From Calditrichales bacterium MX18-03 (lineage in GTDB: Bacteria > Bacillota > Clostridia > Lutisporales > Lutisporaceae), in contig JAJGRE010000002.1 of the NCBI GenBank assembly GCA_021083345.1, forward strand, positions 124,001-188,000: 64,000 nt of DNA. Reading direction: 5' to 3'. The translations under genes and the position numbers were made by a program. The notes under the pieces were generated by a model that was given only the letters and a program-made list of their open reading frames with translations, ran no database searches and was not told the DNA's origin. Positions 8,953 to 39,450 of the stretch are shown one piece after another. Position 1 is the stretch's first letter, and each line of letters begins with the position of its first letter.

Positions 8953-8990
8953 GCGTGCCTGTCCCGAAATTTGTTGATAAGAAATAGCTG

Positions 8991-9037
8991 AGACTGCATA
9001 AGCGGCTGCATACCGGCCGGCTCCTGCAGTCTTTTTT
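8991..9037 (+). terminator. Terminator of the M23-bactofilin operon
   Basis: Arms AGACTGCA (8991-8998) and TGCAGTCT (9025-9032) are followed by TTTTT. An inner GCCGG/CCGGC pairing lies in the loop. Confidence 0.88.
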
Positions 9038-9061
9038 AAGTCTTTTTTATTTGACCAAATG

Positions 9062-9074
9062 CGAACATATGTTC
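9062..9074. promoter_or_regulatory. LexA-type SOS box
   Basis: CGAACATATGTTC matches the Gram-positive LexA (DinR) dyad GAAC-N4-GTTC including the preceding C. TTGACC at 9051-9056 could be the -35 of a promoter whose spacer is this box. The first gene downstream on the plus strand is the small ORF at 9237. Confidence 0.75.
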
Positions 9075-9118
9075 TTATGCAATTGGGTAAAATATGGTGT
9101 AAGCGGGAGCTAACCGGC

Positions 9119-9160
9119 GTCTAACCACTCCTATGGGGCGCTGCGAAGTTAGACTATTTT
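9119..9160 (+). terminator. Attenuator-like hairpin between LexA box and small gene
   Basis: Arms GTCTAAC (9119-9125) and GTTAGAC (9148-9154) are followed by TATTTTTAT. It sits between the LexA-type box and the ORF, so it may end a short SOS RNA or reduce expression of the gene. Confidence 0.5.
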
Positions 9161-9236
9161 TATCCAAGAGAGTAATATTATTATTAGCAAACAGCGGAGG
9201 CGGGGAGCAATATCCTATGATAATGAGGTGGTTATA

Positions 9237-9494
9237 GTGGGAAGAAAACCAATTGATATGCTGGCAACATACTATGCCAATGGCAAACCGGTGCCCCACC
9301 GTTTTAAATACGCCGATGAAGATGGAAGTGAAATCATCATCCGGATAGAACGGATCCTGCAGAGAGACCAGAACAACCATGCCGGCAACCGCATGCTATG
9401 CTATAAATGCGAGGCCCGGCAGAATGATACGGCCATTCCCCTGGACCTGCGGTATGAATTGGATACCTGCAAGTGGTACCTTTATATGCTTTAA
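9237..9494 (+). CDS. Small conserved protein, possibly SOS-controlled (DUF6504-like)
   Basis: An 85-residue protein with a GTG start at 9237 chosen because GAGGTGG lies six bases upstream. The sequence has a VPHRFKY segment, a central IIIRIERIL strand, a CYKCEA segment and a C-terminal YELDTCKWYLYML. This pattern (strand-rich, ending in a W-x-L stretch) loosely resembles the DUF6504 proteins found beside translesion polymerases; that is an inference, not a match I could test. The LexA-type box 165 bases upstream fits a DNA-damage role. No polymerase gene is in the window. Confidence 0.6.
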   Translation: MGRKPIDMLATYYANGKPVPHRFKYADEDGSEIIIRIERILQRDQNNHAGNRMLCYKCEARQNDTAIPLDLRYELDTCKWYLYML

Positions 9495-9560
9495 CTGTCA
9501 CACTTTTCCTCCCTTGAAAATATCATTATAGTAGGACAAGATAAAAGGAAACACAAAAGA

Positions 9561-9600
9561 AAGGAGTCTGCTTCAACACTGCGGTTGAAGCAGACTCCTT
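9561..9600. terminator. Long bidirectional terminator
   Basis: Perfect 16-bp arms AAGGAGTCTGCTTCAA and its complement (9585-9600) enclose an 8-base loop, between convergent genes. Confidence 0.9.
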
Positions 9601-9609
9601 CAATGCTTC

Positions 9610-36375: not shown

Positions 36376-36397
36376 AAAATGCGCCGCGGCGCATTTT
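36376..36397. terminator. Perfect 22-bp palindrome at the nnr stop codon
   Basis: AAAATGCGCCG and CGGCGCATTTT form a gapless palindrome that includes the first bases of the nnr stop codon. It may fold in mRNA between nnr and the lipoprotein gene. There is no T-run on the minus strand beyond the arm. Confidence 0.5.
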
Positions 36398-37940
36398 AGT
36401 TCCCTATTATATTTCTAATTGTATGTGGAACATTTTTTATTATGTCACCTGCTGTCAGTCCATATTCACCATTTTTTTCCGCAGCTGCATCACCGGCGGC
36501 ACCATGAATATATACACCGCAGACAGCAGCCTCCTTGGCTTTATAGCCTTGAGCGACAAAAGCGGCTATGATGCCCGCCAGTACATCTCCAGAACCGGCA
36601 GTCGCCATGCCGGGATTACCGGTAGGATTGATATAAAAAGTACCGTCAGGCAATGCGATAACCGTCCTGAAGCCCTTCAAGACAACGATGATGCCATATT
36701 GGCAAGCCAGCTTTCCTGCCAGCTCCAACCGGTCCCTTTGCACGACTGCAGCAGAACAGCCCAAAAGCCTTGCCATTTCTCCAGGATGGGGCGTTATGAT
36801 GATTTCTGCTTTTTTATTCTTCAGCACCGACATATCCTGTGCCAAAGCGTTTAAACCGTCAGCATCTATCACCAGCGATACTTCGCTTGATCTCACCAAT
36901 TCCGATACCACTTTCACGGTACCCTCTGCCGTGGTCAGTCCGGGTCCGATCAATAGGCTGTCGCTTTCCTTCAGGGATTCCTTTATCTGAGCAAGGCAAG
37001 CCTCCTGCAAGATGCCTGTCTCATTGTCTGCAAGCCCTTTGGTCATCACCTCCAGAACATGTGCACTCACTGCGTTCTGAACGCTCTCCGGCACTGCCAG
37101 CACGACTGTTCCTGCACCGCTCCTCAAGGCAGCTTCGGCTGACAGGATCCCAGACCCGGCCATTCCCTTGGAGCATGCAACGGCCAACACCCTGCCGTAG
37201 GTTCCCTTGTGGGTATTGCATCTTCTTTTCTTTAGAATGCCTTTAATGATATCCGGCTCCGTCAGGTTGATCTGCAAACCCGCTTCAGCAATAGCCTTTG
37301 CCGGAATGGATATGTCCGTCGTCACCAGCTTCCCGCATGCCTCAGGACCGTCATTGATAACCAGCCCCAGCTTCGGCAGCTGAAAAGTCACCGTCACGTC
37401 GGCCCGCACACATTCACTGTCAATAAAGCCCGTATCACTGTCCAGTCCCGATGGTATATCAACTGAAACCACAGGCTTTCCTGCAAGGTTCATTATCCCG
37501 ATGATTTTCCTGTAGAAGTCTGAAAGTGCCCCTCTGAAGCCTGTCCCAAGCAGTGCGTCCACAAGAAGAGCGCTTTTCCCTGCAATGGCTGCTGCAGAAG
37601 GCAATTCCGGCTCAGCAAGCTTGTAAACCGGAAGCTCCAGTTTCTGTATGATCTCCAGGTTGATCAGGGCATCCCCTTTAACCTTTGCTTCGTCGCCGCA
37701 CAGCAGCACCTCTACCTGCCAGCCCCGGTTGTGCAGCAGCCTGGCTATGACAAAGCCATCCCCGCCGTTGTTGCCTGTTCCGCAGAAAACAGCTGCTGCG
37801 CTGCGTTCAAGCTTCAAGGCTTCAATCTCCCGCACCGTTGCCGCAGCCGCGTTTTCCATCAGCACTACGCCGGGTATGCCGTAATCCTTAATTGATGTTT
37901 CGTCTAACTTCCTCATCTGACTGGAAGAGCAGATCTTCAA
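36396..37940 (-). CDS. nnr: Bifunctional NAD(P)H-hydrate repair enzyme
   Basis: A 514-residue two-domain enzyme. The N-terminal epimerase domain (about 1-210) has GTGNNGGDGFVIARLL. The C-terminal ADP-dependent dehydratase (about 225-505) has NPTGNPGMATAGSGDVLAG. Together they restore damaged NADH and NADPH hydrates. The start is a TTG at 37940 with AGGGG upstream, inside the end of acpS. The 53-base overlap implies coupling. A later ATG at residue 9 is an alternative start. Confidence 0.93.
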   Translation of the reverse strand: MKICSSSQMRKLDETSIKDYGIPGVVLMENAAAATVREIEALKLERSAAAVFCGTGNNGGDGFVIARLLHNRGWQVEVLLCGDEAKVKGDALINLEIIQKLELPVYKLAEPELPSAAAIAGKSALLVDALLGTGFRGALSDFYRKIIGIMNLAGKPVVSVDIPSGLDSDTGFIDSECVRADVTVTFQLPKLGLVINDGPEACGKLVTTDISIPAKAIAEAGLQINLTEPDIIKGILKKRRCNTHKGTYGRVLAVACSKGMAGSGILSAEAALRSGAGTVVLAVPESVQNAVSAHVLEVMTKGLADNETGILQEACLAQIKESLKESDSLLIGPGLTTAEGTVKVVSELVRSSEVSLVIDADGLNALAQDMSVLKNKKAEIIITPHPGEMARLLGCSAAVVQRDRLELAGKLACQYGIIVVLKGFRTVIALPDGTFYINPTGNPGMATAGSGDVLAGIIAAFVAQGYKAKEAAVCGVYIHGAAGDAAAEKNGEYGLTAGDIIKNVPHTIRNIIGN

Positions 37941-38334
37941 TGGCTATCCCCTGCCTTTCCGCTGCCATCTCGGCAACTGCTGTTGCCGTAGCAAAGTCCC
38001 TGGAGTGTGATATGGTTACATGGATCTCACCGATCCCGTTCTCCTCCACAAAGCGTCTAACGCCGCCGCTGAGCCTCACGATGGGTTTGCCGATTGCGCA
38101 GCGCAGTATCTCGATATCCCGCCACCGGAAACCGCTGAGCCCGGTGCCCAGTGCTTTCAGCACCGCTTCCTTGGCAGAGAAGCCTGCTGCAATATGCTGC
38201 GCATTCATATTCCGCTTTTTATAATAATCCAATTCCTGCTGTGTGAACATTCGTTCCAAAAAACCCGGATTCCGGGTCATTGCCTTCTTGACTCTTTTTA
38301 TCTCAATAATGTCAGTTCCGATACCGTAGATCAT
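37888..38334 (-). CDS. acpS: Holo-[acyl-carrier-protein] synthase
   Basis: A 148-residue phosphopantetheinyl transferase that activates acyl carrier protein. The Mg ligands are Asp8 in GIGTDIIEI and Glu56 in FSAKEAVLKALGTG. The HVTISHSRD segment near the end is typical. A GAGGAGG site precedes the ATG. It begins the acpS-nnr-(lipoprotein)-alr-mazEF block. It is about 25 residues longer at the C-terminus than the usual 120-residue enzyme. Confidence 0.93.
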   Translation of the reverse strand: MIYGIGTDIIEIKRVKKAMTRNPGFLERMFTQQELDYYKKRNMNAQHIAAGFSAKEAVLKALGTGLSGFRWRDIEILRCAIGKPIVRLSGGVRRFVEENGIGEIHVTISHSRDFATATAVAEMAAERQGIAIEDLLFQSDEEVRRNIN

Positions 38335-38847: not shown

Positions 38848-39450
38848 TTATTCATCCTTCATAAATCTCTCATCAAAGCGGTCAATATCTGCCGCACCCA
38901 GCATCCCGTGAATAAAGTTGTACAGCTTGTTGACCCGCTCATCCAGCTCAACTTTTTTCTGAATCAATGCCCCCAGCTTCTGCCTCAGCTCGTTGACCTC
39001 CTGCTGACATTTTTCAGAGTCGCTTTTGTGCTCGTTGATCAGTTCATATGCCCGCTTGATGGTCTCCTTCAGCAGTTCCGTATTCTGCGTGTTGATCAGG
39101 CCGGGCAGCGTCTCCCCTTCCTCCAGCAGCTCCGGAATCCGTTTGTTGATGCCCAGTAACTCCTTCTGTGCCTCTTCCAGCTTGGGTATCGCTGCCCCAT
39201 TGTTGTTGTCGTTGATATCATTGGAGAGATACAGGATCTTGTTCATCACAATCTTTTTTCTTTTTTCCATCTCCCGCAGCTCGGCTTCGCAGTTTTTTTC
39301 GCGGTTGATCAGTTCTTCCAGCTTTTCGGCGGATTTGGTCAGGTTCTTGGTCTTGAAATTGTTGAAGAGCTGCAGCCATTCGGGTGTATAGATCAACAAC
39401 GGTATCTTGTTTCGTTTGACGATATTGTCCTTAAAATCAATGCTTTTCAC
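38848..39450 (-). CDS. Coiled-coil protein, unknown function
   Basis: A 200-residue, highly charged soluble protein. Heptad patterns run through about residues 35-75 and 95-180, with Asn-rich linkers (NDINDNNNG). There is no signal or membrane segment. I do not recognise the family. The GTG start at 39450 follows GAGGGAT. Confidence 0.6.
   Translation of the reverse strand: MKSIDFKDNIVKRNKIPLLIYTPEWLQLFNNFKTKNLTKSAEKLEELINREKNCEAELREMEKRKKIVMNKILYLSNDINDNNNGAAIPKLEEAQKELLGINKRIPELLEEGETLPGLINTQNTELLKETIKRAYELINEHKSDSEKCQQEVNELRQKLGALIQKKVELDERVNKLYNFIHGMLGAADIDRFDERFMKDE

Follow-up and report, generated by a model that had tools for sequence, protein, structure and literature searches.

A perfect LexA-type box ahead of an 85-residue protein gene: a probable SOS-induced, ImuB-C-like partner of a tail-bearing Y-family polymerase

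What does a perfect LexA-type box control when the gene behind it encodes an 85-aa protein with no significant match to any family in Pfam, NCBIfam, or PHROGs? The question is raised by the 64-kb stretch of DNA analyzed here (the window), in which the sequence CGAACATATGTTC at positions 9062 to 9074 (no strand assigned), containing the 12-bp perfect palindrome GAACATATGTTC, lies 162 bp ahead of the start codon of such a gene. The Gram-positive LexA (SOS) box consensus is CGAACN4GTTC. The preliminary description of this locus held that the box fits it, and a pattern search bears this out: CGAACATATGTTC is the sole exact match to CGAACN4GTTC in the window. With one mismatch allowed, there are 9 matches against 8.87 expected, which is chance level, so that only the perfect site at 9062 to 9074 stands out. 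One of the one-mismatch sites, TGAACATTCGTTC at 38244 to 38256, lies between two minus-strand open reading frames (ORFs; 36396 to 37940 and 38848 to 39450), with no link to repair seen. Our literature search returned nothing on a clostridial LexA box with CGAAC.

Upstream of the box, on the plus strand, profile matches identify genes for an M23 peptidase (PF01551; 7603 to 8574) and a bactofilin (PF04519; 8596 to 8952), both of which are kept as neighbors in relatives. The bactofilin gene has a strong intrinsic terminator (8990 to 9033, plus strand; −24.9 kcal/mol, z = −3.93), which sits upstream of the box and separates bactofilin from the SOS unit. A possible but weak −35 element, TTGACC, can be read at 9051 to 9056 on the plus strand; the promoter scan reported no site there, and no good −10 element was found near it or between the box and the gene. 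In a promoter built on this element, the box would overlap the −10 region or sit within the spacer. The 85-aa ORF (9237 to 9494, plus strand) begins with GTG at 9237, ends with the stop codon at 9492 to 9494, and is preceded by a putative ribosome-binding site, GAGGTGG (9225 to 9231, plus strand); the ORF listing places the start at GTG 9228 instead. A tiny upstream ORF (MIMRWL; 9217 to 9237) has a TAG stop that overlaps the GTG start of the 85-aa gene, an arrangement that may permit translational coupling. A hairpin at 9560 to 9601, which appears to be a convergent terminator, follows the 85-aa ORF and precedes a convergent gene (9610 onward) whose putative product, judged from its translation, is metallo-hydrolase-like. 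Sub-threshold Rfam matches on this hairpin (e.g., miRNA and iron-response models) were dismissed as chance.

The same genome offers a direct comparison for the box. By chance, 4.69 Mb should contain the exact 13-mer CGAACATATGTTC 0.09 times, both strands counted; the genome has it twice: once ahead of the 85-aa gene and once ahead of a gene for a Y-family polymerase. The looser CGAACN4GTTC has 11 + 9 matches genome-wide (20, including one overlapping pair), versus 41 + 25 (66) for the backwards pattern; it is thus not enriched and means little on its own. Nonetheless, sites of this class are found just ahead of recA, lexA, a gene for a RarA-like AAA ATPase, and the Y-family polymerase gene. 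The encoded RecA and LexA score above the NCBIfam cut-offs and the polymerase above those of Pfam IMS and IMS_C; the ATPase resembles RarA-type models with scores below their cut-offs. The polymerase is encoded at positions 421871 to 423136 of a 1.7-Mb contig (C7), and the window is part of a 1.16-Mb contig (C8). A further site, CGAACACACGTTCG (L010:1501-1513; G000:C7:879491), some 90 bp ahead of a gene for a TetR-like regulator that is followed by an ABC transporter gene, is, from its sequence, a possible additional SOS target. Taken with the conservation of the box described below, these data make the window gene very likely an SOS gene.

Of 61 relatives, 21 encode a homolog of the 85-aa protein; within the family, the figure is 17 of 22 genomes (the window's own counted), and across the class sample it is 38 of 196. 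Homologs are also found at 66 named loci, including those from Lutispora, Alkaliphilus, Desulfosporosinus, Soehngenia, Proteiniclasticum, Acidaminobacter, and Petroclostridium. In 50 of these, the gene immediately upstream, in the same orientation, encodes a Y-family polymerase, and 41 of the 50 operons carry GAACN4GTTC within 300 bp ahead of the polymerase (9 have no box at that stringency). Another 10 loci have no polymerase gene in the fetched flank, and 9 of them have a box of their own within 300 bp; in 4 more, the polymerase gene is nearby in another order, with a box within 750 bp in 3 cases. The remaining 2 were too short upstream to judge. Random 300-bp windows drawn from the same loci contained the box in 2 of 1,011 cases.

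In six loci of relatives (L024 to L026, L028, L030, and L035), the polymerase and small genes are convergent to bactofilin and M23 peptidase genes; in three others (L100, L104, and L106), bactofilin, box, and small gene are codirectional, and the polymerase gene is convergent or downstream. The window appears to take this one stage further, with the small gene and its own box beside bactofilin and the polymerase gene on C7 behind an identical box, the direction of such rearrangements being read back from present arrangements. Among the 28 genomes of the class sample with a tail-bearing polymerase (see below), the two genes are linked in 19 and unlinked in 9, the window's genome included. In G305, the unlinked pair shares a contig, with 975 kb between the genes; in the other genomes, the two genes are on separate contigs. 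Given the shortness of several of these contigs, individual pairs may be linked across a gap. In this two-unit arrangement, all 9 small genes are preceded by GAACN4GTTC (at 69 to 354 bp), as are 8 of the 9 polymerase genes (all except that of G167).

Several variants of these loci deserve mention. In Desulfosporosinus (L126:2823-2984, L129, L132, and L155), an ORF for a Cys-rich protein of ~53 aa (..CPVC.NKLI..GGCTECITGDWAKCG) stands between the box and the small gene and, judged by position, might be a further member of an SOS cassette. More distant copies of the small gene occur in virus-derived IMG/VR contigs (L188 to L192) and in prophage-like loci (L042 to L045), most of them with box variants of the form (G/A)AACNNNNGTTT just upstream; no polymerase or lexA match was found in the IMG/VR loci, and annotated phage records yielded no match to either the window protein or a prophage-type copy. 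In L093/L176 (G017:C146), the partner polymerase gene is split into two frames with internal stops, and the downstream small gene is intact.

The C terminus of the partner polymerases carries a conserved tail, GG..(Y/F)..M, which in the window's genome reads ..APMMGGSGAEDYPVMSSIL. Of 30 polymerase loci in the sample of relatives, 17 encode the tail, 11 do not, and 2 are truncated; the small gene is present in 17 of 17 tail-bearing genomes versus 1 of 11 tail-less ones. In the class sample, which overlaps the sample of relatives, it is present in 28 of 28 tail-bearing versus 5 of 33 tail-less genomes (Fisher's P = 2.3e-12, uncorrected for phylogeny). Here, polymerases were accepted at an E value of ≤1e-80, and the tail was called from an alignment to residue 419 or beyond; G199, in which a contig edge truncates the polymerase gene, was left out of the count. 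Five of the 38 genomes with the small gene have no polymerase at this cut-off. For YqjH homologs without a YolD association, the available part of PMC6511836 describes tails as generally variable or missing, against which the conserved tail is a refinement. Together, box conservation, linkage to the polymerase, and this co-occurrence uphold the suggestion in the preliminary description that the locus is connected with the SOS response and DNA repair.

What kind of protein is it? Family alignments retain G16, P20, and W80 throughout and G50-N51 and C58 nearly always, and the window protein keeps the near-invariant K4, P5, G16, P20, A49-G50-N51, M53, C58, E74, and W80; it does not have the N-terminal MK found in relatives. 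The profile of the small-protein family (A1, the window protein plus 22 of 24 other relatives' matches, with L041 and L044 left out) was compared with one of DUF6504 (A2, 26 of 30 loci, with L060, L061, L070, and L074 left out). The hhalign probability is 94.7 over 75 columns, against 0.1 for the reversed profile, and none of 150 column shuffles exceeds 12.8. A wider alignment (A5, the window protein plus 44 of the 66 named loci) gave 90.7 (80.9 with query and template swapped), 91.4 with the window row removed, and at most 8.6 in 200 shuffles. The Pfam model of DUF6504 (PF20114), in contrast, matched 0 of 23 family members at an E value of ≤1, its gathering cut-off not being reached, and the W..G..WW.GE core seen in most rows of the DUF6504 alignment is absent from that of the small-protein family. 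The earlier hunch that the protein recalls DUF6504 thus holds at the level of profile-profile similarity and fails at that of the Pfam model and core motif: this is a diverged relative of DUF6504 and not a member by Pfam's definition. Its identity as YolD (PF08863) was ruled out, with hhalign probabilities of 2.0 and 0.5 (alignment A4, 8 of 12 loci), and no YolD was found in the window's genome.

An AlphaFold2 model built from 45 sequences has six β-strands (mean pLDDT, 89.9; pTM, 0.78). Searches of solved structures by sequence profile gave nothing for either profile at an E value of ≤1, and Foldseek found no match to the model in the PDB at an E value of ≤0.001. The best VIA-align Z score, 6.4, was to cystatin-like folds, within the range that the tool rates as common, and none of the listed folds from either program was accepted as a credible relative. 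By description only, the model is in line with the ImuB-C domain as presented in the portion of PMC12926913 available, a modelled β-barrel with no close PDB relatives and unlike UmuD′/YqjX.

The connection of DUF6504 to ImuB-C comes from a plasmid of Deinococcus aetherius that encodes, in a row, LexA, a Y-family polymerase, DUF6504 (E value, 6e-08), and DnaE; the available text of PMC8072749 describes the Deinococcus-type cassette as lexA-imuY-imuB-C-dnaE2. From this cassette, we infer that DUF6504 is the standalone ImuB-C; a literature search for DUF6504 by name found nothing, and the stretch looked at in a Nonomuraea record carried no feature annotation. In the sections of PMC3765255 available, standalone ImuB-C is named as such, with a proposed role in DNA binding and damage recognition, and is also found beside Ku/ligase and photolyase genes. 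A PMC12926913 excerpt places it with the putative regulatory subunits that bind polymerases, and one from PMC6511836 couples it with two subgroups of YqjH polymerases, “mostly from Clostridia.” Part of the window protein's family may therefore already stand in the tables of that last work. The profile-profile similarity, the translesion polymerase encoded alongside in most named loci (50 of 66), and the predominantly β structure predicted for the protein, with its invariant C-terminal Trp (W80), make membership in a diverged ImuB-C-like family likely.

In our reading, 9237 to 9494 would be a LexA-repressed, damage-induced single-gene unit whose product is a small, all-β protein of the ImuB-C/DUF6504 superfamily. 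RecA filaments would trigger LexA cleavage, freeing the box at 9062 to 9074, and the small protein would be made together with the DinB/Pol IV-type Y-family polymerase encoded on C7 under an identical box. It would bind this polymerase, most likely through the conserved C-terminal tail ..APMMGGSGAEDYPVMSSIL, and the two, with RecA, would form a translesion complex analogous to that of UmuD′ with UmuC. That the protein acts with the tail-bearing polymerase encoded elsewhere in the genome is likely, and the full account, an SOS-induced, ImuB-C-like subunit working in trans on the C7 polymerase, probably via the tail, is in our judgment the probable one. Counting against it are the 162 bp between box and start codon, with a weak hairpin and no good −10 element there, the absence of family-model matches and of the DUF6504 core motif, the small genes in tail-less or polymerase-free genomes, and the 9 operons in which no box was seen.

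Other readings share parts of this evidence. An SOS-induced, ImuB-C-like protein might work without any polymerase, e.g., as a DNA-binding factor that recognizes damage, the operon linkage reflecting shared regulation only. The DNA-binding proposal and the Ku/ligase and photolyase neighborhoods in the PMC3765255 sections cited above fit this idea, as do the 10 named loci with no polymerase nearby, the 5 polymerase-free genomes, and the phage-borne copies with neither polymerase nor lexA match in their loci. It sits poorly with the presence of the small gene in every one of the 28 genomes with a tail-bearing polymerase, and the window's genome keeps such a polymerase under the same box; we consider it unlikely. 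The window protein has evolved faster than the polymerase of its genome, being 37 to 42% identical to relatives versus the 50 to 63% predicted from polymerase identity (G005 and G012 are also low), so its role could have shifted. That divergence and the missing N-terminal MK would also suit a decaying remnant, a gene parted from the polymerase operon that is expressed and no longer needed, were it not for the intact frame, the perfect box, and the near-invariant residues retained, which leave this the least probable of the explanations considered here.

The preliminary description also noted a terminator-like hairpin between the box and the gene and proposed a short SOS-induced RNA with partial readthrough. 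The hairpin is there: on the plus strand, a 7-bp stem (GTCTAAC, 9119 to 9125, with GTTAGAC, 9148 to 9154) precedes the T-tract TATTTTTA, so that an RNA started near the box might end within 9119 to 9162, the protein then depending on readthrough or a separate promoter. But it is weak, at −9.6 kcal/mol, and no more stable than shuffled sequences (z = −0.85 for 9118 to 9155 and −0.09 for 9088 to 9170); inspection by eye of the leaders in own-box relatives showed no counterpart, and no Rfam family reached its gathering score. With neither stability nor conservation behind it, the short-RNA proposal is unsupported, and we regard it as very improbable.

A broader generalization can be put forward tentatively, as somewhat short of an even chance. 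In many Clostridia and Tissierellia, the counterpart of Pol V may consist of a tagged Y-family polymerase, GG..(E/D)YPMMSSIL, and a tag-recognizing, ImuB-C-like subunit whose gene repeatedly left the operon, each time with its own LexA box, with common SOS regulation, acting in trans, keeping the complex together. This would mean a Pol V-like complex in Clostridia without YolD, and an 85-aa protein outside all curated family models would gain a likely function. For ImuB-C itself, the proposed functions are binding of damaged DNA, binding of DnaE2, and regulation of the polymerase, and a DnaE2-free pair in which a short tail tracks the small protein offers a minimal system for studying binding, the docking site, and mutagenesis.

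Compared with known systems, the arrangement is of a kind already described, an ImuB-C with a Y-family polymerase, and orthologs of the window protein are possibly among those tabulated. With the standalone ImuB-C/DUF6504 (PF20114), it shares a length of ~80 aa, an all-β makeup, a C-terminal Trp, and the company of Y-family polymerases under LexA. It differs in that the small family goes unseen by the Pfam model, a conserved AGN.M replaces W..G..WW.GE, and the window gene is unlinked from the polymerase gene and has its own LexA box. The resemblance to UmuD′ of Escherichia coli Pol V, as an SOS-induced small subunit proposed to dock on the polymerase C terminus, is one of proposed role, and the window protein has no peptidase domain. 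YolD/YqjX (PF08863), the UmuD analog of Gram-positive bacteria, is likewise a small β protein beside an SOS Y-family polymerase, although the two show no profile similarity and YolD goes with the YqjW/UvrX polymerases. Even the separation of the two genes has a parallel there: in Staphylococcus aureus, according to the part of PMC6511836 available, uvrX and yolD are also unlinked, with a LexA site each.
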